Below, piece by piece: positions 1,278-60,845 of a stretch of 64,000 bases of DNA (its first letter is position 1; every line of letters begins with the position of its first letter). The translations under genes were made by a program, and so were the position numbers. The notes below the pieces were generated by a model. The model saw nothing but the letters and a program-made list of their open reading frames with translations. It was not told where the DNA came from and did not search any database. Location: the NCBI GenBank assembly GCA_945898275.1, contig CAMDHZ010000009.1:1-64000 (forward strand), in the 5' to 3' direction. This stretch comes from Chitinophaga pinensis (lineage in GTDB: Bacteria > Bacteroidota > Bacteroidia > UKL13-3).

Positions 1278-2212
1278 AACCTTGGTTTAATTAAGAAGTC
1301 AATATTTTTCTTGAGCCCGTTGTATTTGGCGCGTGAAAGTGCTGAATTTTTAAATAATCTCCCAAAAGTATCTTCAGTAATTTCAATCCAATCTTGAGTT
1401 TTCATTTCTAAGAACTCAGGTTTCGGTTTGAACCTAGGTTCTTGGTGCGGTTTAGCGAAGCGGTTCCAAGGGCATACATCCATGCAAACATCACAACCAA
1501 AAATCCAATTTTCCCAAGTTTCTTTAAATTGGGGAGGTATTTCTTCTTTAAGTTCAATTGTTAAGTAGCTGATGCATTTTGAACCATCAACTTTGTGAGG
1601 TTCATAAATAGCTTGTGTGGGGCAGGCCTCCATGCAGGCATTGCAGGTACCACAATGGTCTGTGGTTATAGTATCAGTATCTAATTCCAAATCTATGATA
1701 AGCTCACTTAGAAAGAAGTAGCTTCCAGCTTGTTTCTGAATTAGGTTTCCGTTTTTGCCAAGCCAGCCTAATCCAGATTTTATGGCCCAAGCCTTTTCTA
1801 ATATTGGCGCAGAATCTACAAAAGCCCTGCCTTCTACCTTCCCAATAGTAGTTTGGATAATATTTAGTAATTCAAACAACTTATCTTTTATAACAATATG
1901 GTAATCTTCGCCATAGGCATAAGTCGAAATTTTAAGTTGGTCATTAGGAAGTTTTTCATTGGCTTTATAATTGAATAAAAGCGAAACAACGGATTTTGCA
2001 ACAGGCACAAGCAAAGTTGGATCTAGTCTTTTATCAAAGTGATTTTCCATGTATTTCATTTGGCCATTTCTCTCTTCTTTTAACCATTTTTCAAGGCGAG
2101 GTGCTTCCTCCTCTAAAAAGGCAGCCTTAGAAATACCGCAAGCAGAAAATCCCAAAGCCAGGGCTTGAGATTTGATAAAATTAGTTTGTTGAGTGCGATT
2201 CAAGGATATCAA
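1274..2212 (-). CDS. queG: Epoxyqueuosine reductase QueG
   Basis: 312 residues, normal for QueG, which reduces epoxyqueuosine to queuosine in tRNA anticodons using cobalamin and two [4Fe-4S] clusters. Both ferredoxin-type cysteine motifs are visible: [12 protein letters not shown] at about residues 186-197 and [10 protein letters not shown] at about 238-247. The conserved segment [15 protein letters not shown] near residue 132 holds the active-site Asp known in the family. The start MISLNRTQQ fits family N-termini. queA, the preceding step of the pathway, lies 41 kb away in the same window, so the pathway is present but dispersed. The gene carries one exact copy of the window-wide 10-mer at 1425-1434, read as FKP. 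Confidence 0.95.
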
Positions 2213-2230
2213 CTAAAGTCGCAATATAAC

Positions 2231-2259
2231 AAAAGAGGAGGCTTTTGGCCTCCTCTTTT
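2231..2259 (-). terminator. Intrinsic terminator of the Spy-like gene
   Basis: A perfect 12-bp stem, AAAAGAGGAGGC at 2231-2242 and its complement at 2248-2259, surrounds a 5-nt loop. Read leftward it lies 20 nt after the stop of the 2279-2695 gene and ends in a T-rich arm. Read rightward it also ends in T's, so it may work in both directions. It separates that gene from queG. Confidence 0.75.
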
Positions 2260-2278
2260 TAAAGAATATATACTTCAT

Positions 2279-2695
2279 TTACATTGTTTTGCCAGCCCTT
2301 TTACTTTTTGCATTTTCTTTCTTTTCTTGTTTCATCTTTTCCTTTTCTTCTTTATAAATCTTTTGTTGTTCGGCATTTAGAATTGCAATGATTTCAGCAT
2401 CTGCTTTTTCTAGGTAAGTTTTCATGATTTCTCGTTTTTCTTTTTGAGAGGCATCTGCTGGTAAACTCTGCATTTTTTGTTTTGCCTCAGTTCGGTTTCT
2501 TTTTGTAATTTCATCAAATTGTTCGGATTGTTTAGCATCTAAATTAAGTTTAGCTTTTAATTCAGATTTTCTTTCTTCCATTTTGGCTTTGGCTTCTCCA
2601 TTTCCTTTAGACCTTCCTTGGGAAAAGCCATTTAAGTTAAGTAGCATAAATCCTGCAAACAATGCAGTAAAGAACTTTAAATTTAAGTTTTTCAT
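2279..2695 (-). CDS. Small secreted charged protein, Spy/CpxP-like
   Basis: 138 residues with a signal peptide (MKNLNLKFF, hydrophobic core, GFSQ|GR at about 26). The mature part is almost wholly charged helix (Lys, Glu, Gln, Ala). Two segments resemble the LTxxQ repeats of Spy/CpxP periplasmic proteins: LNLDAKQSEQFDEI near residue 50 and LNAEQQKIYKEE near 106. By family analogy it may be a periplasmic helical chaperone or envelope-stress protein. Such repeats are loosely defined, so function stays tentative. It is monocistronic, with a strong terminator downstream, and is divergent from the polysaccharide cluster at 2851. Confidence 0.7.
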   Translation of the reverse strand: MKNLNLKFFTALFAGFMLLNLNGFSQGRSKGNGEAKAKMEERKSELKAKLNLDAKQSEQFDEITKRNRTEAKQKMQSLPADASQKEKREIMKTYLEKADAEIIAILNAEQQKIYKEEKEKMKQEKKENAKSKRAGKTM

Positions 2696-2850
2696 AATTA
2701 TTTAAAATATAGATATTGGATAAGATTAACTTTAAAAGGTTTAATTAAAAAAAAGAAACATTGAATCACAAATGGTGGGAAATTATGTTAGTTAATTATT
2801 ACTTTAAATTGATATTAATGGATATATTTGATACCTAAATTAGCTGAGAA

Positions 2851-3651
2851 TTGTCAATATTTCTTAAAGGAGTTTTAACATTTTTTGCATTGATGATATG
2901 CAATGGTCTGCTTTTGGGTCAAACCGAAAAAAAAGACTCGTTGGTATGGAATGGTTCTAAGTATGTGCCATTTTCAAGCATACCTGTTGATACGATATTA
3001 TTTGATTTTGACAAAGATCTTAGCTTACAAATTCAGCCAATAGATTCAATTCTTAAATATGCATTATTATATTCACCTACTTTAAAATTTGAAGATGCAG
3101 CCATTCAAAAATCAATGTATAATTTAAAGTATACCAGATTTCTATGGATGAATGGAATAACAGGTTTTTATAATTACAGTTTTGGTAACCAAACCAATCT
3201 AAATTCAATAGATAATAATTCTGCTATATTAAACAATAGTTTAGGTTTAGGTTATAGGTATGGCTTTAATGTGGTAATTCCATTGACAGAGTTTTTTGGC
3301 AGACCCAATCGTATGAAGCAATTACGAGCGGAAAATCAGATGGCAATTCATAATCGAGAATTACAACAAATTGAAGTAGAACAGCGCGTTATTTCAGCAT
3401 ACTTTAATTTACTAAATGCACAAAAGCAAATGAAAATTAAAGAGCAAGATACTGAAAGTGCAAGGTTAACGGTTGAAATTGCTATGATTGAAATGCGAAG
3501 AGGAAAAATTCGTCCATCCGATTTATCTCGATTAAAAAATGTTCATGCTTTAGCAGAGTCAAGTCTTGAAATGTCTAGAAGAGATTTTATGATTTATTAT
3601 TATCAATTAGAATCTTTAGTTGGAAGAAAATTAAGTAAATTTAAAAAGTAG
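2851..3651 (+). CDS. TolC-like outer membrane protein, half length
   Basis: 266 residues starting at TTG (2851). Upstream ATG codons are out of frame, and the N-terminus then reads as a signal peptide ending near LLLGQ|TEKK. The body looks like a TolC-family repeat: long helices with heptad spacing (for example ELQQIEVEQRVISAYFNLLNAQKQMK near residues 165-195), then ESLVGRK at the end. TolC-family subunits usually have two such repeats in about 420-480 residues, so this is about half. There is no sign of a lost second half before the next gene, which starts 14 nt downstream. It begins a three-gene polysaccharide set and may be the outer-membrane exit component. Confidence 0.7.
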   Translation: MSIFLKGVLTFFALMICNGLLLGQTEKKDSLVWNGSKYVPFSSIPVDTILFDFDKDLSLQIQPIDSILKYALLYSPTLKFEDAAIQKSMYNLKYTRFLWMNGITGFYNYSFGNQTNLNSIDNNSAILNNSLGLGYRYGFNVVIPLTEFFGRPNRMKQLRAENQMAIHNRELQQIEVEQRVISAYFNLLNAQKQMKIKEQDTESARLTVEIAMIEMRRGKIRPSDLSRLKNVHALAESSLEMSRRDFMIYYYQLESLVGRKLSKFKK

Positions 3652-3664
3652 CAGCTGAACATTC

Positions 3665-5875
3665 ATGACATTAATAGGTTTTTTTAGAATTATCATTAAT
3701 AAACTAAGGTGGTTGGTTTTATTTCCTTCCATGTTGGCCGCTATGGTAATTTATTTAACTCGTGACCTGCCTAAGGAATATCAAACATCTGCTACGGTTT
3801 ATACAGGTTTGGCTTCAGGTTATAGTATTACGGATGATGGCAGCGAAAAGGTGGATTATTTTGCGGTTAATAACGCTTTTGACAACTTAATAACCACAGT
3901 GAAGTCTAGAGAAACTATGGAGGAAGTTTCTATTAAACTTATTGCCCAACACTTACTTTTGAAGGAGCCAAATAATGATATACTTGGGGTAAAAGGTTTT
4001 GAAGAAATCCATAGAATTTTAGACATGAGCGAAATTTCTAAGCTCATCGTGCCAGGTAATTTCGAGAAAACAGTTGAAAGACTTTACTCAATTAAGGACA
4101 GCAGTAATAGCAATGTGGTTCAATATCTTTTAACTGATGGATCTAGTCCATATGCTATTTCTAAGATAACTGGAAACCTTTCTGTTGCTAGGAAGAGCAG
4201 TTCAGATATGTTAGAATTGGGTTATAAAACGAATGACCCAGCTGTGTGTGTGCATACCTTGAAATTTTTAATAGAGGCCTTTGCTATCCGTTATAAGAAC
4301 ATAAAAGGCTCTGAAACAGTAAATGTAGTAAATTATTTTGAAGAGCAGCTAAATTCGGCATTTGACCGACTTCAGGGTTCAGAAAATAAATTAAGAGATT
4401 ATGGGGTAAATAATAATATCATCAGTTATTCCGAGCAGGCAAAGTTTGTGGCAGAATCAAAAGAAGATTTATCAACAGAGTTCTACAAAGAAAAAATGAA
4501 GTTAGAAGCGGCGCAAAAAGCCATTGCGCGGATAGAAGAAAAAATGAGTAGTTACAGTGACTTTGTTTCTTCTAATGTTGACTTAATGGATTTAAGACAA
4601 GAATTATCAAACCTAAATTATAAAATCACAAATGCACAAATTTTCAAATATGATATTGAAAGTATAGGTGCTTTGCAAGACAAAGCGGATAAAATAAAAA
4701 TTGAGTTAAAAGAGAAAGCTAGAGAATATTACGAGTTTAATAATTCCATAGAATGGGTGCCTCAAGAAGCTTTATTAAATGAGTGGCTAAGTAAAGCTCT
4801 AGAATTGGAGGAAAGCAAAGGCCGATTGCAAGTTTTTGAAGACCGATTAAAACAATATGATGGCATTTATAAAGAATTTGCACCATTAGGTTCAGATATT
4901 AGTAGATTAGAGCGTGAAGTTGGCGTCCAAGAGAAGCAGTATCTTTCTGTTTTACACGGTTTGAACCTAGCTAGGTTGCGTCAACAAAATTTAGAAATGA
5001 GTAATCAGCTTAAAACGGTAGACAATCCAAATTTTCCGTTAAACCCTAATGCTTCAAAAAGGGGGCTATTAATTGTAGTTTCATTTATTGCTGGTTTTGT
5101 AATTTTACTCAGTTATTATGTAGGAGGAGCAATTTTGGACAACACGATTAAATCACCAGATAGGGTTGCGAAAATGATTGATTTGCCATTGCTTAGTGCA
5201 TTCCCAGAACATGACCTTAAAATTGTGAAGGGGGTAAAAGTTGAAGAAATGCGTAATAGCTTATTACAACAAGTTATTAATACAATTTTTATTGACTTGA
5301 AGAAAATTGACCCACAAGCAAAACGTTATACAATTATTATTTTTAGCACTCAAAGCGGAGTAGGAAAGAGTTATTTTGCAGAAAGTATCGTTAATAAATT
5401 GAGTAGGATTCGAAAGAAGGTAATCTATTTATATCCTGAGGTAAGCGCAAAATCTGGTAAATATTTGGAGAAAAACAATTCAAAATTGTTAACCTATAAA
5501 TACAAAGTAAACGACGGGATTATTGATTACAATAGTGTTTTAGATTTCATCAATTTGGCTGAAACAGCTTCTCCCGATATGAATGATGTTTCCTACAATG
5601 TGATTGAAATACCTAAGCTAAGCAAGTATCCAATTCCAGCTAATTTGGTTGAGCAAGCCCAATATTCTATTTTAGTAGCTGATGCAAATCGTTCATGGAC
5701 AAGCGCTGACAACTTTTTAATAAATACCTATTTAAAATTGGCAAGTGGGAAGGTGAGTGTGTTATTAAATCATGTTGCCCCAGATTTACTTGAACCAATT
5801 TATGGGGAAATTCCTAAAAGACGGTCGGAAATACGCAAACGTTTGAAGTCTCTTTTAGGCGGTGATAAATACTAA
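3665..5875 (+). CDS. Wzz/BY-kinase-like polysaccharide co-polymerase
   Basis: 736 residues with the layout of Wzc-type proteins: a first membrane helix at about residues 14-31, a long periplasmic coiled-coil region (about 215-440), a second membrane helix at about 467-488, and a cytoplasmic P-loop domain. Walker A is present (STQSGVGKS, about 560-568). The Walker A' site, normally a DAD-type motif, reads YLYPEVSAK, and the Walker B site reads VIEIPK without the usual Asp. The C-terminus (GGDKY) lacks a tyrosine cluster. It probably controls chain length in polysaccharide export with little or no kinase activity. An exact copy of the 10-mer lies at 4958-4967. Confidence 0.85.
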   Translation: MTLIGFFRIIINKLRWLVLFPSMLAAMVIYLTRDLPKEYQTSATVYTGLASGYSITDDGSEKVDYFAVNNAFDNLITTVKSRETMEEVSIKLIAQHLLLKEPNNDILGVKGFEEIHRILDMSEISKLIVPGNFEKTVERLYSIKDSSNSNVVQYLLTDGSSPYAISKITGNLSVARKSSSDMLELGYKTNDPAVCVHTLKFLIEAFAIRYKNIKGSETVNVVNYFEEQLNSAFDRLQGSENKLRDYGVNNNIISYSEQAKFVAESKEDLSTEFYKEKMKLEAAQKAIARIEEKMSSYSDFVSSNVDLMDLRQELSNLNYKITNAQIFKYDIESIGALQDKADKIKIELKEKAREYYEFNNSIEWVPQEALLNEWLSKALELEESKGRLQVFEDRLKQYDGIYKEFAPLGSDISRLEREVGVQEKQYLSVLHGLNLARLRQQNLEMSNQLKTVDNPNFPLNPNASKRGLLIVVSFIAGFVILLSYYVGGAILDNTIKSPDRVAKMIDLPLLSAFPEHDLKIVKGVKVEEMRNSLLQQVINTIFIDLKKIDPQAKRYTIIIFSTQSGVGKSYFAESIVNKLSRIRKKVIYLYPEVSAKSGKYLEKNNSKLLTYKYKVNDGIIDYNSVLDFINLAETASPDMNDVSYNVIEIPKLSKYPIPANLVEQAQYSILVADANRSWTSADNFLINTYLKLASGKVSVLLNHVAPDLLEPIYGEIPKRRSEIRKRLKSLLGGDKY

Positions 5876-5886
5876 TTCTAGAATCC

Positions 5887-7431
5887 TTGTTTACTATCAA
5901 TGAAAATAAATACACCAAAGAAATAGTTCCACTGATAGGCTTTTTGCTATTAGCGGCTATCATGGGTTTTATCATTAAAAAGGGGCAGGTTGCTAGTGCG
6001 GGATTTTTTATTGCACTTCCATTTATTTTGGCCTTACTAGTTTGGATTTTTCGAGATCCTAAAGTTGGCGTGTTATCTGTTTTGCATTTTTCTTTTTTGG
6101 TTAATGGTTTAGGGCGTTTTTCACCTGCAGGCATACCTTTTGGATTATTTGTGGATGGCCTTTTAATTCTAACAATTATTGCAACCATTTTTAAAGTAAA
6201 TAAGAAACAAGCTGGATTAATGCAAAATCCACTTTTTTATATTTTATTTATTTGGTTTTTGTACACCTTATTTGAATTGGTAAATCCAGAAGCCAGAAGT
6301 AAGGAAGCTTGGTTTTACGCAGTAAGAGGAGTTTCACTTTACCAAATACAACTTGTTCCTTTGATACTTATACTAATGAATACCAAGGCTGATATGGACC
6401 AATTTATTAAAATTTGGTTTATTTGGTCTCTTGTCGCAGCAATTTATGGTTTTAAAATGAATATCTTGGGTCCAAATGTTGGAGAACGGAAATGGTTGGA
6501 TGAGGGAGGGAAGATTACCCATGAGATTCATGGACGACTTAGGATTTTCTCTTTTTATTGCGACGCAGGACAATTTGGTGCTGCCATGGCTCATACTACG
6601 CTAAGTGCCTTGTTAATGGCAATTGGACCTTATCCTAAAAAGCAAAAGCAATTTTATTGGTTTATAACAGCCTTTTGTTTTTGGGGTTATGCGCTTTCTG
6701 GGTCGCGAGGACCTTTATTTGTGCTGGCAGCAGGTGGTTTTTTATATTTATTTTTGATTGGTAATTTTAGAATTGTAATGCTTGGGTTAGCCATTGGTGG
6801 ATTACTTTTTGGAATATTAAAGTATACCTCAATAGGGAGTTCTAATTACCAAATTCAACGCATGCGAACGGCGCTCGACCCCAATGATGCCTCATTAATA
6901 GTGCGCATTGAAAATCAAAAAAAGCTAGCTGTTTATCTTTCTTCAAGACCAATGGGAGGTGGCATTGGGTCTGGAGGATTTTGGGGTAATAGATTTTCGC
7001 CAGGTTCTTTTTTGTCTCAAGTCGCTTTAGATAGTTGGTATGTGAAAATTTGGGTTGAAACAGGGATTATAGGGCTGGTCCTACATATTGCAAGTTTAAT
7101 TCTAATTTTGATCATTGGAATAATTAATATTTTTAAATTAAAAGATCCTGATATACGACAGCGCCTGGTGGCATTAGTATGTGGATATTTTGGAATTGTA
7201 TTTGCAAGTTATGGGAATCAAATTTTAGGACAAATGCCAACAGGTACGGTAATTAATTTTACAATGGTTTATATGTTCTTGTGCATTAAATGGGATAATG
7301 AAATCACAGAAAAGAAAAATCTTGGTTCAAACCAAAATCAGATAAATGACAAGCTAGAGGTTGAGAATTTTAAGCTACCCTTTGAAGTAGGAAATAGACT
7401 TGAAAGAAGGGTAAAAGTAAAGGTTATTTAA
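5887..7431 (+). CDS. O-antigen polymerase/ligase-like membrane protein (Wzy type)
   Basis: 514 residues, about 10-12 membrane helices, with the Wzy_C signature: SGSRGPLFVL at about residues 274-283, then a periplasmic loop with GGGIGSGGFWG and DSWYVKIWVETGIIG (about 355-400). It would polymerise or ligate undecaprenyl-linked glycans at the outer face of the inner membrane. The start chosen is TTG at 5887, 11 nt after the preceding stop, because the nearby ATG is out of frame. With the TolC-like and Wzz-like genes it forms a minimal export set. Glycosyltransferases are absent from the window. A 10-mer copy is at 7324-7333 in the hydrophilic tail. Confidence 0.8.
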   Translation: MFTINENKYTKEIVPLIGFLLLAAIMGFIIKKGQVASAGFFIALPFILALLVWIFRDPKVGVLSVLHFSFLVNGLGRFSPAGIPFGLFVDGLLILTIIATIFKVNKKQAGLMQNPLFYILFIWFLYTLFELVNPEARSKEAWFYAVRGVSLYQIQLVPLILILMNTKADMDQFIKIWFIWSLVAAIYGFKMNILGPNVGERKWLDEGGKITHEIHGRLRIFSFYCDAGQFGAAMAHTTLSALLMAIGPYPKKQKQFYWFITAFCFWGYALSGSRGPLFVLAAGGFLYLFLIGNFRIVMLGLAIGGLLFGILKYTSIGSSNYQIQRMRTALDPNDASLIVRIENQKKLAVYLSSRPMGGGIGSGGFWGNRFSPGSFLSQVALDSWYVKIWVETGIIGLVLHIASLILILIIGIINIFKLKDPDIRQRLVALVCGYFGIVFASYGNQILGQMPTGTVINFTMVYMFLCIKWDNEITEKKNLGSNQNQINDKLEVENFKLPFEVGNRLERRVKVKVI

Positions 7432-10144: not shown

Positions 10145-10145
10145 G

Positions 10146-12963: not shown

Positions 12964-14357
12964 AGTTTAATCAGCTTCTTTTTAATTGATTGATTCCCGT
13001 TTTCTATGTTAACTAGATAGACACCAGGTGACCAATTTTCAATGGACGTTTCAAATGTAGGTTGGGAGATTGGTTTCTGCAAAATCAATTCACCTAAACT
13101 ATTATAAATATTTACAATTGATTTGACGCTTGGTTCAAACCCAATTGTTATTTGAAAACTTGAGGAAGCTGGGTTTGGATAGATTTTAACTTGAGGAACA
13201 TCTAAAGTATTTGGTAAGCTCGTTAGTTCATTGGAAGGTTTAAGGGTAAAAATGCCTTCTTGCATATCGCTTGCAGCAATGGTGCCTGAAGGAAACCAAG
13301 GATATAAACCCCAGCAGCCGTTAAAGCCTTCATAACTTGCAGGAGGAAATGGAAAAGTTCTATAATACCCAACTTGAACAGGATTAAATGGGTTTTTCAA
13401 ATCAAAAATTACCACCCCTTCATGATAATAAGAAACATAAGCAAAATCTCCCACCCAAAATGCATTGTGTGCTGTTGCATTGGTGCTTGCTTCAAATTTG
13501 CTCACTAGTTTAGGGTCATAAATATTGCTTACGTCAAATATTTTAACGGCTAATCCATTTGGAACTTCGTCTGTAAACATAATGTATTTTCCGTTTGGAG
13601 AGAGCCAACTGCTATGATTGTAGCCGTTTTCTGGGTAATCTGCAATTACTGTTATTAAGGCTTGTTTATTTAAATTCCTTAAATCAAAAACCCATAAACC
13701 TGTGTATTCAGTAGAGCACCAAGCTGTATCATTTCTAACATAGACTTCGTGAACACTTCTAAATGCTTCGCTAGTTCCATTAAATTTAGGGACATTTAAA
13801 CTTCCTATTTTTATAGGAATTTCTGGGTTTTCTAGGCTAATGACATCCATTGCATTGGTTACGCCATATTTAGTTCTATTGATGCACATATATAATCGTT
13901 TGCTTTTGGCCTCAATAAAGATACTATGTGTGTTTTGTGTAATTGTGTCACTATCGTAGACTTTGTGCACAGAATCTGGCAAGTAGCTTAAATCAAAAAC
14001 TTGCAAACTTCCCAATTGCTTATTGTCGCTAACACAATAGACATATTTGCTAAAACATTCAAAATCTCTATTAACCATTTGTTTTGATTTGCCATCTTCT
14101 ACATCGCACAAAACAATATTTTGAGGGTTAGTGATGTCAAAGAAATAAATGCTATCTGTGCTTCCAGCAATGATGTATTCTCTTTTGTTTATTGTATCAA
14201 CATAACCTGTAAGGTCGCTCCAGATTTGAGTTCCATTAATTCTTGGTAAATTTGGATTTTGCCAATGGTCTAGGAGTTTTATGTTTAAAGACTTATCCTG
14301 CGCGAAGGTTTGGTTCAAACCGAAAAAAAATAATACAATGTAAAGATACTTTACCAT
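12960..14357 (-). CDS. Choice-of-anchor B family protein with T9SS sorting domain
   Basis: 465 residues. The signal peptide has a hydrophobic core ending FFFGLNQTFAQ. The body (about 25-365) is a beta-propeller of LVIVD-type repeats, with segments such as YFFDITNPQNI, LQVFDLSYLPD and VVIFDLKNPFNP. Residues about 385-465 form a T9SS type A sorting domain (KIYPNPASSSF, GELILQK, PGVYLVNI, KKLIKL). It should be exported through the outer membrane and attached or released. It is a tandem paralogue of the next upstream gene and overlaps it by seven bases. Exact 10-mers lie at 13132-13141 and, inside the signal peptide, 14312-14321. Confidence 0.85.
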   Translation of the reverse strand: MVKYLYIVLFFFGLNQTFAQDKSLNIKLLDHWQNPNLPRINGTQIWSDLTGYVDTINKREYIIAGSTDSIYFFDITNPQNIVLCDVEDGKSKQMVNRDFECFSKYVYCVSDNKQLGSLQVFDLSYLPDSVHKVYDSDTITQNTHSIFIEAKSKRLYMCINRTKYGVTNAMDVISLENPEIPIKIGSLNVPKFNGTSEAFRSVHEVYVRNDTAWCSTEYTGLWVFDLRNLNKQALITVIADYPENGYNHSSWLSPNGKYIMFTDEVPNGLAVKIFDVSNIYDPKLVSKFEASTNATAHNAFWVGDFAYVSYYHEGVVIFDLKNPFNPVQVGYYRTFPFPPASYEGFNGCWGLYPWFPSGTIAASDMQEGIFTLKPSNELTSLPNTLDVPQVKIYPNPASSSFQITIGFEPSVKSIVNIYNSLGELILQKPISQPTFETSIENWSPGVYLVNIENGNQSIKKKLIKL

Positions 14358-15739
14358 TTGATAATCTTTTTGGTTTGATTACCTTTTTCATTGAAAACGT
14401 TCAAGAAATAGACGCCAGCAGCTAAATGGCTCAAATCAATTTGGTTTCGGTTTGAACCAAGTGTACCATTCATTTCTTGTATTCCTGAAATGTTGAATAA
14501 ATTAAAATCATATACACCATTTTCTAAACCAGAAATAAAAATATTATCGTGTGTTGGGTTAGGAAAAAAACCGAAGTTAAGGTTGTTTGCACTAGCGTTT
14601 TCGTTACCTACTAGGCTGCTATCAATTTCAAATACAAAAATTCCTGAAGTTAAGTCGCTTGCAATAATATGCTTGCTTGGCAAGAAAGGATAAATGCCCC
14701 AACAACCTTTAAAGCCGCCATATTGTTCGGGCTCAACGGGATGTGTATCATACCATGCAACTTGGTAGGGTTTTGAAGGGTCTTTAACATTATAAACTCT
14801 TACACCGTCATGATAAGAAGAAACATATGCAAAATCACCATACCAAAAAGCATTATGCGGCATAGCAGATGGATTGCTATTAAACATACTTACAAAGCGC
14901 GGTTCTGTGAAATTTTTTAAGTCGTAAATTTTTATATCTAGTCCGGTATTTTCATCCGTAAACATGATGTATCTGCCAGTTTTATCTAACCAACTAGAGT
15001 GGTTATAACCTCTATCTGGGTAGGAGTTGATGATGTTAATTAATCTTTGATTTGATAGGTTTTTCAAATCAAAAATAAAGAGACCCGCATTTTCACAACT
15101 AAGGTAAACTGTATCATTTCTAACATACATTTCGTGAACAGCATTGAACAGGTCAAAATTATTTGGGTCCTTTGGCACTTGTAATTCTGCCAAAAACAGC
15201 GGGTTTTCTGGGTTTTCCAAGCTTAAAACATCCAATGCTGAGAAACCTCCAGGTTTAGAATTCATGCTCATGTACAATCTCTTAGATTGAGAATCCACAA
15301 AAATGGTATGTGTAAAAGTGCCTAAAGCATTGCTTTCATAAACTTTATGAACCGAATCTGGTAGGTATTGTAAATCAAAAATTTGAAGTGCGCCAATGCC
15401 AGAAGCTTGATCGGAAACGCAATACGCATAATGTTTATAGGTTTCATAATCTCTGTTTCTAGCAAAACGAGAGGAGCCATGTTGTCTGGCAACTAATTTT
15501 ATTTGAGTAGGAATTGTAATATCGAAAAAATAAACGCTATCAGTTGTACCTGCAATTATATATTCTCTGTTTTTGATTGGGTCGAACCAACCTGTTAAAT
15601 CGTTCCAAATGTCTGTCACATCTACCTTTGGCAAGAGTGAGTCATTATAATTAGAAAGAAGTTTCATTTTATAGGCTTGTTGCCCATTTGCTATAAAATG
15701 GAATAAGATTATAGATACAAATAACAGTAGTTTTTTCAT
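14351..15739 (-). CDS. Choice-of-anchor B family protein with T9SS sorting domain (paralogue)
   Basis: 462 residues, co-linear with the downstream paralogue over its whole length. Shared landmarks are DLTGW, NREYIIAGTTDSVYFFDIT, SVHKVY, a NHSSWL segment, PHNAFWYGDFAYVSSYHDGV and GCWGIYPFLPS. The signal peptide ends near ANGQ|QAYK. The C-terminal sorting domain starts at NFGFFPNPTHDN and ends KKIIKW. The ligand of such propellers is unknown. The genomic order suggests a three-gene operon (two propellers, then the porin). An exact 10-mer is at 14449-14458, read as GSN in the sorting domain. Confidence 0.85.
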   Translation of the reverse strand: MKKLLLFVSIILFHFIANGQQAYKMKLLSNYNDSLLPKVDVTDIWNDLTGWFDPIKNREYIIAGTTDSVYFFDITIPTQIKLVARQHGSSRFARNRDYETYKHYAYCVSDQASGIGALQIFDLQYLPDSVHKVYESNALGTFTHTIFVDSQSKRLYMSMNSKPGGFSALDVLSLENPENPLFLAELQVPKDPNNFDLFNAVHEMYVRNDTVYLSCENAGLFIFDLKNLSNQRLINIINSYPDRGYNHSSWLDKTGRYIMFTDENTGLDIKIYDLKNFTEPRFVSMFNSNPSAMPHNAFWYGDFAYVSSYHDGVRVYNVKDPSKPYQVAWYDTHPVEPEQYGGFKGCWGIYPFLPSKHIIASDLTSGIFVFEIDSSLVGNENASANNLNFGFFPNPTHDNIFISGLENGVYDFNLFNISGIQEMNGTLGSNRNQIDLSHLAAGVYFLNVFNEKGNQTKKIIKW

Positions 15740-20453: not shown

Positions 20454-20524
20454 TCAAGGGTTTTAAGCCACTTGTTATCCACATTTTATCCTTTTCTAAC
20501 TTGCTGTAAAAAAGGTCTTTTGGT

Positions 20525-26311: not shown

Positions 26312-26384
26312 CGGAAGTTAGTTTAAACTTGTTAACAAATTAAGTGCAACTAATTGTTTTGACAAATTAATTTTGACCACATTC

Positions 26385-31084: not shown

Positions 31085-31270
31085 ATGAATCTGCAAAATT
31101 TAGAAGATAATTATGAAACAATCTGCCCAAGGTGTAAGGTTCAAACCGAAGTTAATAGAATAAAGAGAGGCTTTTTAGAGCGCTTGTTACTTCCTAGTAA
31201 AGGGAAGTTTAAATGCTTAAAATGCCTTAGAATTTTTTATTTTAAGTTAACCCCAAATCAAATTGGCTAA
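31085..31270 (+). CDS. Zinc-ribbon-like miniprotein
   Basis: 61 residues from ATG 31085. A TTG at 31055 would add ten residues. Two Cys pairs, CPRC near residue 14 and CLKC near 47, frame a basic middle (RIKRGFLERLLLPSKGKFK), consistent with one zinc ribbon. No family recognised. An exact 10-mer at 31138-31147 is read as VQT between the two Cys pairs. Strand and order fit a tail gene of the preceding operon, but a 74-nt gap separates them. Confidence 0.6.
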   Translation: MNLQNLEDNYETICPRCKVQTEVNRIKRGFLERLLLPSKGKFKCLKCLRIFYFKLTPNQIG

Positions 31271-44011: not shown

Positions 44012-44677
44012 ATGAATAGGCATGCCATCATTGTTGCTGGGGGTAAAGGCTTGCGCATGGGAGCTCAAATACCTAAGCAATTTCTTGAACTCAATGGCAT
44101 GCCTGTTCTTATGCATACTATCAAATCGTTTCGGTTTGACCCAAATATATTTGTTACTGTAGTTTTGCCTTCCGACCAGTTTGAATATTGGAATTGGCTT
44201 TGTCAAAAGCATCGTTTCAACTTGCCTCATCAATTGGTAAAAGGCGGAGATACTCGTTTTCAATCTGTGCGTAATGGACTAAAAGCTATCCCCCAAAATG
44301 CAGATTTAGTAGCTATTCATGATGGTGTTAGACCTATTTTAAGCCAACAAATTATTGAAAATGGATTTGAAGTTGCTAGTCAAAAAGGAAATGCCATTGC
44401 AGTAGTTCGACTTAAAGATTCTATTCGTAAACAAGAATTAACAGGTAATAACCACAGTGTTAATCGTGCTAATTATTTCTTGGTTCAAACCCCTCAAACT
44501 TTTGAATATAACGTTCTTTGGGAGGCATATCAACAAGCAGAAGACGATAATTTCACAGACGATGCTTCAGTGGTTGAAGCAATGGGAAAGAAAATAAATC
44601 TAATTGAAGGAGATTATAAAAACATCAAAATTACTACACCAGAAGATTTGCTGGTAGCAGCAGTTTTCTTACAATAA
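44012..44677 (+). CDS. ispD: 2-C-methyl-D-erythritol 4-phosphate cytidylyltransferase
   Basis: 221 residues. The nucleotide-binding loop AGGKGLRMGAQIPKQFLEL (about 8-26) and conserved VAIHDGVRPIL, VRLKDSIRK, LVQTPQTF and DDASVVEAMG (acidic metal region) identify IspD. It activates MEP with CTP in the non-mevalonate isoprenoid pathway. An exact 10-mer (44482-44491) encodes VQT in LVQTPQTF, a position that is itself conserved in the family (QTPQ), so that copy may be partly protein-driven. Confidence 0.95.
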   Translation: MNRHAIIVAGGKGLRMGAQIPKQFLELNGMPVLMHTIKSFRFDPNIFVTVVLPSDQFEYWNWLCQKHRFNLPHQLVKGGDTRFQSVRNGLKAIPQNADLVAIHDGVRPILSQQIIENGFEVASQKGNAIAVVRLKDSIRKQELTGNNHSVNRANYFLVQTPQTFEYNVLWEAYQQAEDDNFTDDASVVEAMGKKINLIEGDYKNIKITTPEDLLVAAVFLQ

Positions 44678-46341: not shown

Positions 46342-47823
46342 TTAATTCATTTTACGTCTCAACTGCCAATTACTTGGGTCATTTTTTACCTCGGTTTGAA
46401 CCGAGCTGCCTTGGTTCAGAAATAAATGACCAGCGCTAAAAGCTGCTGCTGAATGCAAGTCTGGACGCGTTTGATTCAACATTTCTGGCTCATAGTACTT
46501 TTCAATGAATTTAGTGTCAAAATCGCCTTTTAAAAACGCCTCGTGATGCATTACAAAGTTTCCAAACGGCAGGGTAGTGGCGATACCGCTAATTTGGTAA
46601 TCGGCAATTGCCCTAATCATTCTTTGTATTGCCTCTTCACGTGTTGCTCCAAAAGTTACCAATTTTGCTATCATTGGATCATACTGAATTGGAATTTCCA
46701 TGCCTGCCTCAAAACTATCATCTACTCGAACGCCCAATCCTTGGGGTAGTTTATAAGTTAAAAGTTTGCCAATATCTGGAAGGAAGTTATTTTGAGGGTC
46801 TTCTGCACAAACTCTTAATTCCATCGCATGGCCATGAATTTTTAAATCTTCTTGCGCGTATCCCAATTTTTCACCTCTTGCCACCTTAATTTGTTCTTTC
46901 ACTAAATCTAGTCCTACTATTTGCTCTGTAACAGGATGTTCTACTTGCAGCCTAGTATTCATTTCTAAGAAATAAAAGTTTAATTCATGGTCGACTAAAA
47001 ACTCTACCGTGCCAGCGCCATAATAATTTGCAGCTTTGGCAACATTAACTGCTGCTTCTCCCATGGCCTTTCTAATTTCAGGCGTAAGACAGCTTGAAGG
47101 AGCCTCTTCTACCAATTTTTGATGGCGTCTTTGAATGCTACATTCTCTTTCAAATAGATATACAACATTTCCATGTTGATCGCCAAGTATTTGAATTTCT
47201 ATGTGCTTAGGCGAGCCTACAAATTTTTCAATAAATACACTATCATCACCAAAGGAAGCAAGTGCTTCTGACTGCGCCATCCTAATTGCCTCTTCAAATT
47301 CTGACTCTTCATTTACAAGTCGCATTCCCTTTCCACCTCCGCCAGCCGAGGCTTTAATTAAAACTGGATATCCAATTGCATCTGCAATTTTCTTTCCTTC
47401 TTTTATATCTCTCAAAGCTTCATGGGTGCCAGGAACTAAAGGTACATTGAATTTTGCAACAGCTTGTTTAGCCTCAATCTTGCTGCCCATGATTTCCATG
47501 CTTTCAGCTGATGGCCCAATAAATATAAGCCCTGCTTCTTTTACTCTGCGAGCAAAATGTGCATTCTCGCTTAAAAATCCATAACCTGGGTGAATAGCAT
47601 CTGCGCCTGTTTGCTTTGCCACTTCAATAATTTTATCACCTAAAAGATAACTTTGGTTGCTGGGTGGTGGACCAATGCATACTGCCTCATCGGCATATCT
47701 TACATGTAGTGCTTTTCTATCTGCCTCACTAAATACAGCAACAGTTTTAATGCCCATTTCCTTAGCTGTGCGCATTACTCTTAAGGCAATTTCGCCTCTA
47801 TTTGCAATTAGAATCTTTTTCAT
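46342..47823 (-). CDS. accC: Acetyl-CoA carboxylase, biotin carboxylase subunit
   Basis: 493 residues from MKKILIANRGEIALRV (47823). Earlier in-frame ATG 47832 adds three residues. The ATP-grasp loop KASAGGGGKGMRLV, the EMNTRLQVEHPVTE segment (about 285-298) and the C-terminal Arg region identify biotin carboxylase. A tail of about 45 residues after LKGDFDTKFIEKYY is low in conservation. It may instead serve a propionyl-CoA or methylcrotonyl-CoA carboxylase, since no accB is adjacent. An exact 10-mer (46393-46402) lies in the tail, read as VQT. Confidence 0.85.
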   Translation of the reverse strand: MKKILIANRGEIALRVMRTAKEMGIKTVAVFSEADRKALHVRYADEAVCIGPPPSNQSYLLGDKIIEVAKQTGADAIHPGYGFLSENAHFARRVKEAGLIFIGPSAESMEIMGSKIEAKQAVAKFNVPLVPGTHEALRDIKEGKKIADAIGYPVLIKASAGGGGKGMRLVNEESEFEEAIRMAQSEALASFGDDSVFIEKFVGSPKHIEIQILGDQHGNVVYLFERECSIQRRHQKLVEEAPSSCLTPEIRKAMGEAAVNVAKAANYYGAGTVEFLVDHELNFYFLEMNTRLQVEHPVTEQIVGLDLVKEQIKVARGEKLGYAQEDLKIHGHAMELRVCAEDPQNNFLPDIGKLLTYKLPQGLGVRVDDSFEAGMEIPIQYDPMIAKLVTFGATREEAIQRMIRAIADYQISGIATTLPFGNFVMHHEAFLKGDFDTKFIEKYYEPEMLNQTRPDLHSAAAFSAGHLFLNQGSSVQTEVKNDPSNWQLRRKMN

Positions 47824-47872
47824 GATGGGCAAATGTATAAAGATTTGATTGAATTCTTAACTTGCACCTCAA

Positions 47873-50440: not shown

Positions 50441-52098
50441 TGTCAAAATACATTTCTGTAATAATATTTTTTATTTTTTTTGGTTTGAACCAAACCTTTG
50501 GACAGCAATTTTACTACTTCGTTGGGTTCAAGGACAAGCCTTATTATAAAGAAATTGTTTTTAGTCCTTCTTTATACCTTTCACCAAAAGCCATTGAGAG
50601 GAGAACTATAAATGGCGTTCCATTAAATCCGAATGATGTACCGCCAGATACTACTTATATTAATGCTTTAGCAAAACTACCTTTATATATTCATGCTAAA
50701 AGTAGGTGGTTTAATGGTTGTGTAGTTTTGGTTAATAGCAAATCAATTGAAAGTGAAATTAAGTTACTTCCTTTTGTAAGTTCGGTTAAATACTTGGGTC
50801 CTGCCAACTTTTTAAGCGAAGAAAAAGGATCCAGAGAAGCATCAATAAAAACGCAACTTAGTATTTTAGAGCAATCCTTTACCACACGTAAAACAGCAAC
50901 TGACAGTATCTTTTCAGGGAAAAGCCATCCTCAAATATCTTTAATAAATGCTGATAGTTTATTGATGGGTGAAGTGAATGGAGAAGGTATTTTAATTGCT
51001 GTTCTAGATGCTGGTTTTTATAATTTAGATCTGATTCCAGCATTTAAACACTTATTCAAAGAAAAAAGAATTATTGCCGCTTGGGATTTAGTAGCCAACG
51101 AAGAAGATGTTTTTAATGATGATGACCATGGCTTGGCAGTTATGAGTTGTTTAGCCGCTTGGCAACCAGGTAAAATTATGGGAACTGCGCCAAAAGCAAA
51201 TTATATTTTACTTAGAACAGAAAACTCTTACAGCGAATATTTATCTGAAGAATACTTTTGGGCTATTGCAGCCGAATATGCAGATAGTGCTGGAGCCGAT
51301 ATCATAAATTCGTCTCTAGGCTACACAAAACATGATGAAAAATCAATGGGGCATAAGTATTCAGAATTGGATGGAAAAACAACAATTATCACACAGGCGG
51401 CAGAAATCGCAGCCTCTAAAGGTATAATTGTGGTGGCAAGTGCTGGAAATGAAGGAGATAAATCGTGGCGTCAAATTAGTGCACCTGCCGATGGCCCAAA
51501 TGTGGTGGCAGTTGGAGCGGTTGATAAAGATGGGCAATATGTAGGATTTAGTTCTGTAGGTCCAACCGCCGACAAACGCCTAAAACCTGATTTAGCTGCA
51601 ATGGGTAAAAATGCTGCCTTAATTGACAAAAATGGAACAATTTACGAGGGAAATGGCACATCTTATGCCTGTCCAATAGTAAGTGGAACATTTGCCCAAT
51701 TAATGCAATTGGCACCAAATGCAGGCAGTAACAAGATAAAGGAAGCCTTAAGATTGAGCTCTTTAACATTTTATGAGCCAGATAAATACATAGGTGCTGG
51801 TGTGCCAAATGTAAATTTAGCGGCAAAAATGGTTCAAGCCTTTGGCGATTCCATAATTGACATTGAAACCTCCGAAGATGGAAAGCATTTATTAATTGCT
51901 TTAAATACAAGAAGAACTCAAAAAGTTGAATTGAAAATAATTCATTCTATCATTGGAGAACTTTCAAGTGAATCAGTAACTTTACAAAAAGGTTTGAACC
52001 GAGTGGCCATTAAAATAAACAAAAAACGACCAAAAGGCTTGTGCCGTTTGATCGTTTCTTTTGGTCAGAGAAGCTCCGAAGTAGTGTTTATGCTTTAA
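50440..52098 (+). CDS. Exported S8 subtilisin-like protease, probable T9SS cargo
   Basis: 552 residues. Signal peptide with the end FFGLNQTFGQ|Q. A subtilase domain (about 180-465) holds the Asp in IAVLDAGF, the His in DDHGLAVMS and the Ser in GNGTSYACPIVSG. Between the signal and this domain lies an about 150-residue pro-like region. The last about 85 residues (KIIHSIIGEL, LQKGLNRVAIKI, PKGLCRLIVSF) look like a T9SS-type sorting domain. Exact 10-mers lie at 50482-50491 (signal peptide) and 51991-52000 (tail). It follows the lipoprotein with a one-base overlap. Confidence 0.88.
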   Translation: MSKYISVIIFFIFFGLNQTFGQQFYYFVGFKDKPYYKEIVFSPSLYLSPKAIERRTINGVPLNPNDVPPDTTYINALAKLPLYIHAKSRWFNGCVVLVNSKSIESEIKLLPFVSSVKYLGPANFLSEEKGSREASIKTQLSILEQSFTTRKTATDSIFSGKSHPQISLINADSLLMGEVNGEGILIAVLDAGFYNLDLIPAFKHLFKEKRIIAAWDLVANEEDVFNDDDHGLAVMSCLAAWQPGKIMGTAPKANYILLRTENSYSEYLSEEYFWAIAAEYADSAGADIINSSLGYTKHDEKSMGHKYSELDGKTTIITQAAEIAASKGIIVVASAGNEGDKSWRQISAPADGPNVVAVGAVDKDGQYVGFSSVGPTADKRLKPDLAAMGKNAALIDKNGTIYEGNGTSYACPIVSGTFAQLMQLAPNAGSNKIKEALRLSSLTFYEPDKYIGAGVPNVNLAAKMVQAFGDSIIDIETSEDGKHLLIALNTRRTQKVELKIIHSIIGELSSESVTLQKGLNRVAIKINKKRPKGLCRLIVSFGQRSSEVVFML

Positions 52099-55739: not shown

Positions 55740-55767
55740 AAGGGTCGGCAAACTTTTGCCGACCCTT
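55740..55767 (+). terminator. Intrinsic terminator of the M16 protease gene
   Basis: AAGGGTCGGCA (55740-55750) pairs perfectly with TGCCGACCCTT (55757-55767); the loop AACTTT can close further. It is followed by TCTTATTTTT. It lies 20 nt after the protease stop. Its 3' arm lies only 15 nt before the helicase start, which argues against the in-frame TTG at 55756 as that gene's start. Confidence 0.85.
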
Positions 55768-55782
55768 TCTTATTTTTATAGG

Positions 55783-58221
55783 GTGTCAGTTCAACAAATC
55801 AAAGATTGGTTCAAACAAAACAATAGAAAGCCATTTCCTTTTCAAGAAGAGGCTTGGGAGGCTTTTCTAAGTGGAGATAGTGGTTTGGTTAATGCCCCAA
55901 CAGGAAGCGGTAAAACCTATTCATTGGCCCTTCCAATTTTATTACATTGTAAAAACTCGAAAAAATCTGGATTAAAAGCAATTTGGATAACGCCTATTCG
56001 CGCCTTAAGTCTTGATATTGCAAATGCATTTAAGTCGGCTGCCGAAGCAATAGCGCCAAATGTTTCAATTGAAGTAAGAAATGGAGACACCAGCGTAAAA
56101 GATAGAAAAAGGCAGAAAGAAAAAATGCCTGACATATTAATTACAACCCCAGAAAGCTTACATCTACTCATTTCATCAAAGAGCAGTTATACTGAATTAG
56201 CATCGGTTCAAACCGTAATTATTGATGAATGGCATGAATTACTAGGAAGTAAAAGGGGAGTGCAAATTGAACTTGCATTGGCTTGGTTAAAATCTTGGCA
56301 GCCTCAACTTCAAATTTGGGGAATTAGCGCAACCATCGGAAACTTGGATCAGGCATTGGAAGTATTATTAGGTAATCATTTTGAACCTAAAAATACTATG
56401 CTAATAAAGGCATACCACAAAAAGGAGATTGAAATTATAAGTATTTTACCAGAGCAAATTGATGAATTGCCTTGGGCAGGGCATTTAGGTTTAAAACTTT
56501 TGCCACATGTTTTACCCATACTTTCCCAAGCCAAAACTACTTTGCTGTTCACAAACACAAGGGCACAAACAGAGATTTGGTATCAAGCATTACTCGAACA
56601 AAATCCAATGCTTGCTGGCCAAATGGCTATGCACCATGGCTCCTTGAGTCAGGAAATTAGAAATTGGGTAGAGGAACAAATTCATGCCGGATATTTAAAA
56701 CTGGTGGTTTGCACTTCGAGCCTTGATTTAGGCGTTGATTTTAGACCAGTGGAGCAAATCATTCAAATTGGCAGTCCAAAAGGTATTGCAAGATTTTTGC
56801 AAAGGGCGGGGAGAAGTGGGCATCAGCCGGGAGCTGTTTCAAAAATTTATTTTGTACCTACGCATGCAATTGAATTATTAGAGTTGGAAGCCATTAGAGA
56901 GGCTATTGAAAAAGAGCACATTGAAAGCAGAATTCCACTTATCAGATGTTTTGATGTGCTTTCTCAGTTCTTATTAACATTGGGCATTGGACCAGGTTTT
57001 AATTCAGAAGAAATGTTTGGAATAGTTCAAAAAACTTATTGCTTTCAAACTATCAATTATTCTGAATGGAATTGGCTCATGCAATACTTAGTAGCAGGAG
57101 GAAAGAGCTTGGAAGCTTATAATGAATTCTCTAAGTTACAGCAAAATGAAGAAGGAAACTGGCAACTTCTGGGGCGTAAAGAGTCTATGCAACATAGACT
57201 TAGTATGGGTACTATTGTAGGCAGCAATGCCATGAGTGTAAAATTTTTAAGTGGCGGCAACTTAGGAACAATTGAAGAATATTTTGCAGCTAACCTCGCA
57301 GTAGGAGATGTTTTTGGTTTTGCAGGAAGGAACCTGGAAATGGTTCAAATAAAAGACAATACTGTTTTGGTTCGAAAATCAAATTCAAAAGCAAGTAAAA
57401 TTCCGAGTTGGCAAGGAGGCAGAATGCCCTTGAGTCTTGAGCTTGGTAACTTGTTAAGAGACAAATTTGGTTTGAACCGAATCAACGAGTCTATCGAATA
57501 TGCGCTTATTAAACCATTGTTGGAAAAGCAAAAAGAAATTTCTTTTCTACCGAGCCCCAATCAATTTTTAATTGAGCAATTAGAAAGCAAAGAAGGTTTT
57601 CATTTATTCTTTTATCCCTTTGAAGGTAGATTAGTTCATGAAGGACTTTCGGCACTTGCTTCTTATAGAATTGCAAAACAAATCCCTATTAGTATTTCAA
57701 TGGCTATGAATGATTATGGGTTTGAATTATTAAGTGATCAAATATTAGAAGCTGAGGAAATAATGAGCTTTGATGTTTTCTCAGAGGAGAACCTCAGAAA
57801 TGATTTATTGAACAGTTTAAATTCAGGCGAAATGGCCAAAAGAAAATTCAGAGACATCGCTCATATTGCAGGACTTATTTTCAGAGGGTATCCTGGAAAA
57901 CCAGTAAAATCAAGACATTTGCAGGCCAATAGTAGCTTGTTTTTTGAGGTTTTTAAAACTTATGAGCCAGATAATTTATTGTATCAACAAGCTTTCGAAG
58001 AAGTGTTAGAACAACAATATGAAGAATTGAGGTTGCGCTCAACCCTTAAAAGAATTGGTAGAAGTGAGGTTATAATAAAAAAGCTGGAAAGGCCAGGGCC
58101 ATTAGCATTTCCAATTTTAGTAGATAGATTAAGGCAAAGTGTGACCTCCGAAACACTAGCAGACCGAGTAAAACGTTTAGAATTGAGTTTTATCAATAAA
58201 AAAGACAAAAAGAAAAAGTAG
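55783..58221 (+). CDS. Lhr-type (ligase-associated) DEXH box DNA helicase
   Basis: 812 residues from GTG 55783 (MSVQQIKDWFKQNNRKPFP), because an upstream TTG lies in the terminator. Walker A APTGSGKTYS (about 37-46), DEXH box VIIDEWHELLG (about 146-156), motif III GISATIGN, motif VI FLQRAGRSGHQ (about 344-354) are all present. The C-terminal part (about 400-812) fits Lhr-core with a DUF4438-type tail. Relatives commonly sit beside a DNA ligase and an exonuclease; neither is here. It probably acts in DNA repair. Exact 10-mers lie at 56205 and 57469, and another overlaps its stop (58221). Confidence 0.88.
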   Translation: MSVQQIKDWFKQNNRKPFPFQEEAWEAFLSGDSGLVNAPTGSGKTYSLALPILLHCKNSKKSGLKAIWITPIRALSLDIANAFKSAAEAIAPNVSIEVRNGDTSVKDRKRQKEKMPDILITTPESLHLLISSKSSYTELASVQTVIIDEWHELLGSKRGVQIELALAWLKSWQPQLQIWGISATIGNLDQALEVLLGNHFEPKNTMLIKAYHKKEIEIISILPEQIDELPWAGHLGLKLLPHVLPILSQAKTTLLFTNTRAQTEIWYQALLEQNPMLAGQMAMHHGSLSQEIRNWVEEQIHAGYLKLVVCTSSLDLGVDFRPVEQIIQIGSPKGIARFLQRAGRSGHQPGAVSKIYFVPTHAIELLELEAIREAIEKEHIESRIPLIRCFDVLSQFLLTLGIGPGFNSEEMFGIVQKTYCFQTINYSEWNWLMQYLVAGGKSLEAYNEFSKLQQNEEGNWQLLGRKESMQHRLSMGTIVGSNAMSVKFLSGGNLGTIEEYFAANLAVGDVFGFAGRNLEMVQIKDNTVLVRKSNSKASKIPSWQGGRMPLSLELGNLLRDKFGLNRINESIEYALIKPLLEKQKEISFLPSPNQFLIEQLESKEGFHLFFYPFEGRLVHEGLSALASYRIAKQIPISISMAMNDYGFELLSDQILEAEEIMSFDVFSEENLRNDLLNSLNSGEMAKRKFRDIAHIAGLIFRGYPGKPVKSRHLQANSSLFFEVFKTYEPDNLLYQQAFEEVLEQQYEELRLRSTLKRIGRSEVIIKKLERPGPLAFPILVDRLRQSVTSETLADRVKRLELSFINKKDKKKK

Positions 58222-58301
58222 GTTTGAACCAAGTGAAAAATCCGATTACTTTTGCAATAAATAAATTAATAAATTCGACTAAATTTTTTAAACTTTCATA
58301 C

Positions 58302-59687: not shown

Positions 59688-59714
59688 ATTGTAATAGAAT
59701 TTTATTCTCCATTT

Positions 59715-59747
59715 AAACAGGATGTTTGTTTTGCAAGCATCCTGTTT
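59715..59747. terminator. Bidirectional terminator between the TPR and lacI-type genes
   Basis: AAACAGGATGTTTG (59715-59728) pairs with CAAGCATCCTGTTT (59734-59747), 14 bp with one G-U pair and a 5-nt loop, followed by TTTTGTTTT on the + strand. Its 3' end meets the stop of the leftward lacI-type gene (59752), so it can serve both transcripts. Confidence 0.85.
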
Positions 59748-59751
59748 TGTT

Positions 59752-60744
59752 TTAATCAATTAGAGGTGTTTCAATAAAATAATTACCTTTTATTATTCTT
59801 TGTTCTTTCAGCTGTTGCAAAAGCAATTGAGCAGCTTTTTTGCCTAGATCAAAACCTGAAGTTTTTACATAAGGAATTTTAAACTGGCAAATATTTGGTA
59901 AAAAACCATCGCTCATTGAGATTGTCTTAATTTCTCTGGAAAGGCTGAGTCTTAGTTCATAAGCGGCTTTAATCACACCTTGTAAAATTTCGTCACTCAT
60001 AATAAATAATCCCTCAGGCCTATTTTTCCCATTCCATATATATTTAAAAACTTCTTCCGCCTCTTCAGAATGGTAAGCAAAGTGAATCAAGCCAGGGCCT
60101 GGTTTAATGCCATGGTCAAAAAGTGCTCTTCGAAAACCACTTAATCTATCTTGTGATATAGATAATCTTTCATCACCAAAAATACCTGCAATTCTCTTGA
60201 TATTTCGATTGTTTTTAAGGAGATAACTGATGCCATCATAAGCTGCCTGTTCCCCAGGAATGGATACTTTACAGGTGTCTGAATCTTGTTTAATTTTATC
60301 AAAAAATACCATTGGAATTCCTCTTGAAATGAGTTCTTTAAAATGCTCCAACTCTGAGCTCTCTTTGCATAAGGAGACTAAAATTCCATCAACTCCTAAT
60401 CTTACACAAATCTCTGCATTTTGCTTTTCTCTTAAATAAATATCATTTGAATTTAAAATTAGTAATTGGTAGCCTTCAGCATGCACAATTTCTTCTACTG
60501 CTTTAATTACATTAGGAAAAAAGTAATTGGCAACTTCTGGGATAATTAAGGCAATAATTCCACTTCTTCCTTTTCTTAAGTTAATGGCTGTAATGTTGGG
60601 CTGATAACCTAAGCGTTCAGATAATTCTATAATAGAAGCTTTAAGCTCTTTGCCAACATCTGGGTGGTCTCTAAGTGCTCTAGAGACTGTAGATGGATGA
60701 ATATCTAGGTATTTAGCAATATCTTTTATTGTAACTTTACTCAT
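59752..60744 (-). CDS. LacI/GalR-family transcription regulator
   Basis: 330 residues, full length. N-terminal HTH and hinge: MSKVTIKDIAKYLDIHPSTVSRALRDHPDVG (about 1-31). The periplasmic-binding-like core has GIIALIIPEVANYFFPNVI (about 62-80), DGILVSLCKES, FFDKI and MSDEILQGVIKAAYEL. The bound effector is unknown but probably a sugar or sugar derivative. It is divergent from the TonB receptor and symporter, which are its likely targets through the two palindromes at 60788-60811. Confidence 0.9.
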   Translation of the reverse strand: MSKVTIKDIAKYLDIHPSTVSRALRDHPDVGKELKASIIELSERLGYQPNITAINLRKGRSGIIALIIPEVANYFFPNVIKAVEEIVHAEGYQLLILNSNDIYLREKQNAEICVRLGVDGILVSLCKESSELEHFKELISRGIPMVFFDKIKQDSDTCKVSIPGEQAAYDGISYLLKNNRNIKRIAGIFGDERLSISQDRLSGFRRALFDHGIKPGPGLIHFAYHSEEAEEVFKYIWNGKNRPEGLFIMSDEILQGVIKAAYELRLSLSREIKTISMSDGFLPNICQFKIPYVKTSGFDLGKKAAQLLLQQLKEQRIIKGNYFIETPLID

Positions 60745-60787
60745 AAATTGAAATACAAGGTAGTAATTAACAGTAATTTATCAACAA

Positions 60788-60797
60788 CAATCGATTG
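60788..60797. promoter_or_regulatory. Candidate LacI-family operator 1
   Basis: CAATCGATTG, a perfect 10-bp palindrome with a central CG, as required by the LacI/GalR core AANCGNTT. It lies 43 bp before the regulator's start codon and about 78 bp before the TonB receptor start, in the shared divergent region. Confidence 0.5.
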
Positions 60798-60811
60798 CGC
60801 AAACCATTGCG
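60798..60811. promoter_or_regulatory. Candidate LacI-family operator 2
   Basis: CGCAA-ACCA-TTGCG, perfect 5-bp arms with a 4-base centre, directly next to operator 1. The arms CGCAA/TTGCG resemble outer parts of PurR/LacI-type sites, but the centre lacks CG. It may be a second half-site pair or cofactor site. Confidence 0.35.
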
Positions 60812-60845
60812 GTATTCGGTTTGAACCAACTTAGTTACTGAAGTA

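Follow-up and report, generated by a model that had tools for sequence, protein, structure and literature searches.

The 10-mer GGTTTGAACC is spread over a 64,000-nucleotide stretch (the window) of contig CAMDHZ010000009.1 from the Bacteroidota assembly GCA_945898275.1, where it occupies the middle of an imperfect dyad of 14-16 bp, TTYGGNTYRANCCRAA. Analysis of this genome and its relatives shows that the word is a DNA-level signal, present at about 2,000 places per chromosome and kept there by strong selection or biased transmission, and that in everything searched it is confined to one Bacteroidota genus. Judging from the sequence patterns described below, the signal is very probably selected or driven through a dedicated reader, that is, a sequence-specific and probably two-fold symmetric DNA-binding protein, the specificity of which would have shifted between clades. 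By analogy with known systems, we propose, with a probability of about 0.4, that this reader acts in self-DNA recognition, such that word-bearing DNA would be preferentially taken up and recombined.

Between positions 1425 and 60827 of the window, 22 exact copies (12 on the forward and 10 on the reverse strand) were recounted, as stated in the initial annotation, which had put the chance expectation at about 0.1; dinucleotide shuffles yield 0.08 and an order-3 Markov model 0.31, and GGTTTGAACC is the most over-represented 10-mer of the window. The source genome (G000; 3.52 Mb in 106 contigs) contains 785 copies, compared to 29 (20 forward and 9 reverse) of the reversed control word, so that the excess is not peculiar to the window; the orientations, described initially as equally common, remain so at this scale (391 forward and 394 reverse). 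Here and below, word statistics were derived from approximately 0.5 Mb of G000 along with pattern counts over whole genomes, most of which are fragmented metagenome-assembled genomes (one of these, G003, with 8% contamination).

The word proper is longer than the 10-mer that first drew attention: in 462 kb of G000, the 10-mer is preceded by TTY and followed by W and then by A, the latter conserved in 96% of the copies. The copies with one change, for which both a degenerate site and decay had been suggested, concentrate on certain columns (A to C or T at position 8, T to G at position 3, and changes at positions 1 and 2), with T5, G6, A7, C9 and C10 nearly invariant, and do not represent random decay. 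These column-specific variants, together with the shuffles and the Markov model, rule out chance or composition as the source of the excess. An iterative weight matrix found the same 16-bp dyad independently in G000 and in three other members of the genus (G008, G013 and G012). With each dyad counted once, the matrix detects 309 sites in 502 kb of G000 (0.62 per kb), a density from which the genome-wide number of sites given above was extrapolated as an estimate; the nominal false rate, set with Markov-simulated sequence, is 5%. In its strict form, TNGGNTYRANCCNA, the motif is present in 971 copies in G000, compared to 24 for its reversed control, and in no more than 44 copies in each of 296 other Bacteroidota genomes.

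The majority of the sites (89%) lie within coding sequence as delineated by an in-house gene-calling script, sites being about 1 to 2.5 times as dense between genes as within them, and the sites are evenly spread across gene fifths. They are spaced almost at random (coefficient of variation 0.7-1.2) and their orientation is independent of GC skew, with 89 sites oriented with and 74 against the local skew. One long motif-poor gap holds the genes for EF-Ts and DXP synthase, and sites are somewhat sparser in the stretches that G008 lacks (0.44 vs 0.70 per kb, from small numbers). Five reading-frame registers are used and the missing sixth would place TGA in frame, in agreement with the initial observation that the word appears in nearly every frame that avoids this stop codon. 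Among the window copies, 18 are located inside open reading frames (ORFs), two at gene ends and two between genes (31138 and 60818); as had been noticed, one copy, at 20522, supplies a stop codon. In orthologue alignments, residue identity over the motif codons is 31%, compared to 57% in control windows of the same alignments (none of 5000 resamplings was as low; the comparison used the first version of the gene calls, in which some genes were missed). Because the motif residues are less conserved than the controls, the word occupies places where the protein can change and does not owe its presence to protein conservation. Repetition driven by proteins is accordingly ruled out, both by the weak conservation of the motif codons and by the use of five registers, which bears out the original argument that protein-level selection cannot explain the word.

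At orthologous sites, the motif is far more conserved than its flanks and than background 10-mers, which were matched on GC only, with the distance profile serving as an internal control. In the stretches that could be aligned between G000 and G008, 33 of the 38 G000 copies and all 33 G008 copies have survived unchanged, compared to 58% of other 10-mers of equal GC; in the comparison with G005, which is 79% identical at the DNA level (mostly 75-81%), the corresponding counts are 15 of 24 and 15 of 17 (62-88%) against a background of 11% (p = 4e-9 and 9e-13, respectively). The substitution rate within 8 bp of the motif centre is 0.027 for G008 and 0.076 for G005; over the 40 bp beyond, it rises to 0.086 and 0.24-0.26, with overall values of 0.063 and 0.208. 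Given that substitution is low in the motif and above average just outside it, conservation is limited to the motif itself, which forms a conserved island within fast-evolving sequence. At a few orthologous sites, the motif is retained in a different dialect: the site at 29887 of the window reads TCGGTTTGAACCTA in G000 and G013 and TCGGTTCGAACCAA, the CG dialect, in G012, and that at 37028 reads TCGGCTTGAACCAA in G000 and TAGGCTCGAACCAA in G004. Between genomes that are approximately 70% identical, turnover has affected most of the other sites.

The 18 other genomes of the genus contain 46-1318 copies of GGTTTGAACC, with the largest number in G013, compared to 3-22 copies in 18 genomes of other genera of the family and 0-20 in 23 genomes of other families of the class. 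Nine genomes that belong to other genera of the family, each sampled over 26-140 kb, yielded no comparable word, and in viral contigs the extended word and the reversed control behave alike, with single matches throughout among the matches listed. A low count of GGTTTGAACC within the genus does not mean that the signal is absent: the word comes in three dialects, GGTTTGAACC, GGTTCGAACC and YCTGAACCWA, with GAACCWA as the common part. The second dialect is represented by 300 sites in G012, 272 in G010 and 186 in G016; YCTGAACCWA is abundant (281-657 copies) in G001, G002, G003, G004, G006, G007 and G014; and G015 and G018 have a weak form only. In a tree of DnaE and two neighbouring proteins, partial sequences included, the clades G012-G010-G016, G000-G008-G005 and G004-G001-G014-G006-G007 each have one dominant spelling. 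The dialects preserve the GG-N6-CC geometry together with the GAACCWA half. The central dinucleotide is TG in G000, G008 and G013 and CG in G012; the G012 form is a perfect palindrome, and the G000 form, with its TG centre, an imperfect dyad. Altogether, the genome counts, the restriction to the genus, the dialects, the conservation at orthologous sites and the protein comparison support the class proposed for the word at the outset, that of DNA-level genome-wide signals such as HIP1 or uptake sequences. The outcomes that had been named as contrary to this proposal, namely genome-wide counts near Markov expectation, enrichment in the window only, or copies explained by conserved amino acids, were not observed. 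The initial annotation knew of no such word in Bacteroidota, and we likewise found no earlier report of one in the open-access literature.

If the word is a self-recognition signal, a sequence-specific DNA-binding protein would recognise the dyad as the cell's own kind of DNA, word-bearing DNA would be favoured in uptake and recombination, and this preference would maintain the copies and multiply them at any place that proteins allow, in the manner of the DNA uptake sequences (DUS) of Neisseriaceae and the uptake signal sequences (USS) of Pasteurellaceae. The route would be the pilus-independent transformation that is known in Bacteroidota, with no involvement of a type IV pilus. The analogy is suggested by the excess in every member of the genus and in none of the other genera examined, tree-following dialects that share a core, a density of about 0.6 per kb, mostly genic location in five reading-frame registers at variable protein positions, conservation of the motif only and re-spelled sites. 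The absence of strand bias and the random-like spacing would follow if all that counts is carrying the word.

Several observations weigh against this interpretation. The main objection to a DUS-like reading is the dyad symmetry of the motif, which DUS and USS do not share. Divergence shows no dip around shared sites, a trace that exchange between species might have produced. Each of the 19 genomes of the genus has an open ComEC gene, but so do all other tested genera, which lack the word; ComEC does not discriminate between the two and hence is permissive only. The ATPases of pili and type II secretion (PF00437) are missing from all 19 genomes, short P-loop matches aside, and are found full-length in other Bacteroidota genera as well as in the control genomes; with no type II/IV secretion ATPase in the genus, a ComP-like pilin is excluded as the reader. 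Finally, no receptor was identified. A pilus-free uptake route does exist in the phylum, given that Riemerella is naturally competent without pilus homologues and employs an outer-membrane barrel, a surface protein and ComEC (PMC8459023). The Riemerella uptake genes code for a DUF5689 protein and its OM barrel partner, an HhH protein and a DUF1343 protein. No Riemerella-type gene was recognised in the ComEC neighbourhood from the ORF list, no family search having been done there. As for ComEC itself, most clades of the genus share no more than 36-40% identity in this protein, compared to 50-74% for several flanking proteins, and its gene changes fastest within the conserved neighbourhood.

The most serious alternative, although in our view an unlikely one, is that the dyad is the binding site of an abundant dimeric nucleoid or chromosome-architecture protein specific to the genus, with weak selection keeping the sites. 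The invariant T, GG and T of each arm around a flexible pyrimidine-purine centre would suit a two-fold symmetric protein, as would the perfect palindrome of G012, and the even density and lack of strand bias are also compatible with such a role; the spacing, however, is random-like with no regular interval, and known architectural proteins have either loose specificity or tens of sites rather than about 2,000 long ones. ParB is single-copy as in other genera and no Noc-like paralogue was found (the SlmA and MatP families were not searched), which speaks against this explanation as well. ParB or Noc sites as such are disfavoured by the single ParB and by the density of about 0.6 per kb throughout. 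A HIP-like scenario, in which the dyad or its core would be the target of an orphan methyltransferase and the word would arise and persist through a bias in methyl-directed or very-short-patch repair, appears still less probable. HIP1 is likewise palindromic, iterated and extended beyond its core and is replaced in some relatives by other palindromes with a matching methyltransferase (PMC4390886), and the TG/CG difference between the dialect centres is a transition. The main argument against it is that the methyltransferase families PF01555, PF00145 and PF02086 are patchy and none is genus-wide (gamma-class enzymes were not searched); moreover, G013, the genome richest in copies, has no PF00145, its matches to the other two families are all fragmentary or below threshold, and a 14-bp degenerate dyad would be long for a type II methyltransferase.

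The remaining explanations fare worse. Recombination or segregation landmarks such as Chi or KOPS (FtsK orienting polar sequences) are likewise among the most over-represented oligomers of genomes; these are oriented with replication, whereas the skew counts given above show no such bias and the G012 form reads the same on both strands, so that a landmark of this type is disfavoured and seems very improbable. The possibility that the copies are decaying remnants of a mobile repeat, such as a repetitive extragenic palindrome (REP) or a miniature inverted-repeat transposable element (MITE), would account for the high copy number and the near-palindromic form, but is refuted by similarity that stops within about 10 bp of the core, by the genic location of most sites and by the conservation of orthologous copies in place far above background. 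Among the roles initially listed, uptake is possible without a type IV pilus, a replication landmark is disfavoured by the lack of GC-skew bias, and methylation finds no support in the three families tested.

The copies in the window that are conserved in G008 are found inside the ORFs 1274-2212(-) (1425..1434, forward, within TTCGGTTTGAACCTAG), 3665-5875(+) (4958..4967, forward), 5887-7431(+) (7324..7333, reverse), 12960-14357(-), which encodes a Por_Secre_tail protein (13132..13141, reverse), 14351-15739(-) (14449..14458, forward), 22137-22805(+) (22176..22185, forward, despite flanks that are only 77% identical), 26373-28898(+) (28499..28508, reverse), 44012-44677(+) (44482..44491, reverse), 46342-47832(-) (46393..46402, forward) and 55756-58221(+) (56205..56214, reverse; 57469..57478, forward). 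Also conserved are two copies in the LPG_synthase_TM gene 28903-29856(+) (29478..29487, reverse; 29740..29749, forward), one in the DNA polymerase III alpha gene 36489-39527(+) (36551..36560, reverse), one in the subtilase gene 50440-52098(+) (51991..52000, forward), the reverse-strand copy at 20522..20531 that gives the TGA stop codon to the asparaginase II gene 20525-21586(-), and the forward copy at the junction 58221..58230, which overlaps the end of ORF 55756-58221(+). A second copy in ORF 12960-14357(-) (14312..14321, reverse) reads GGCTTGAACC in G008, and a second copy in the subtilase gene (50482..50491, forward) reads GGTTTGAGCC. The copy at 29889..29898 (forward) lies near the start of gene 29832-31010(+). 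Of the two copies between genes, that at 31138..31147 (reverse) is lost in G008, and that at 60818..60827 (forward) falls in a stretch absent from this genome. The missing segment spans 59687-67236 of the contig (59687-64000 of the window) in otherwise collinear G008 and includes a TonB-dependent receptor gene, 60875-63511. The window also contains 13 further strict 14-mers, namely one with C for A at core position 8 (TCGGTTTGACCCAA, 2914..2927, reverse) and 12 more starting at 8538, 15577, 23136, 29376, 36291, 37028, 38968, 40232, 44131, 45853, 49155 and 49988, of which the dyad at 37028..37041 (forward) lies inside the DNA polymerase III alpha gene. Por_Secre_tail domains in the proteins encoded at 12960-15739 and 29832-31010 indicate that a type IX secretion system is to be expected in this organism.

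Other repeated words were encountered in the course of the counts. A second over-represented word in contigs C1, C2 and C9 of G000, AGGGGGTACC (9 copies vs 0.12 expected), is unrelated to the main motif. Contig C22 of G015 contains ACATCGTACA/TACGATGTAC and ATAACTCATA, each strongly repeated within 80 kb (about 20 times at most), likely as tandem or CRISPR-like arrays; in G021, ACTGATTACT and CAGTAGACAG are repeated 18-28 times in 40 kb; and contig C3 of G004 has 16 copies of TAATTCGTAA/TTACGAATTA in 120 kb, compared to 0.5 expected.

Genome-wide words that are kept against protein constraint are rare, and the known readers, those of DUS and USS, rest on type IV pili in Proteobacteria. If uptake is the correct reading, such signals would have arisen independently, with another reader, in a pilus-less Bacteroidota genus. 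Somewhat more tentatively, the word could be the first self-recognition (uptake-type) sequence in Bacteroidota, a symmetric word with a pilus-independent receptor and with dialects that act as gene-exchange barriers within one uncultured, apparently freshwater genus. The dialects constitute a natural experiment, in which the contact residues of the reader should change with the spelling, and the word provides a genus-specific sequence tag for an uncultured group as well as a testable link to barriers to gene exchange.

Among the known systems, DUS reach thousands of copies per genome, with dialects that are congruent with the core-genome phylogeny and have a short shared core (PMC3630211). The dialects of the present genus similarly follow the tree and share the core GAACCWA; unlike DUS, which are not dyads and are read by the pilin ComP, the word, a putative uptake signal, is a dyad and belongs to a different phylum and to a genus without the type IV pilus ATPase. 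USS resemble it in density, mostly genic location, T-rich neighbouring bases and subclade variants, but have an asymmetric core and pilus-dependent uptake, and their intragenic copies are biased toward gene ends (PMC2346458), compared to the even distribution across gene fifths seen here. HIP1 and the alternate HIPs (highly iterated palindromes) of cyanobacteria are likewise palindromic, highly iterated and represented by other words in relatives (PMC4390886), although HIP1, unlike the 14-16 bp degenerate dyad, is a GC-rich 8-mer accompanied by orphan methyltransferases that match it. The sites of parS, Noc, SlmA and MatP, finally, are also dyads of about 12-16 bp bound by dimers; those systems, however, comprise few to tens of regional sites, whereas the approximately 2,000 sites described here are spread evenly over the chromosome.

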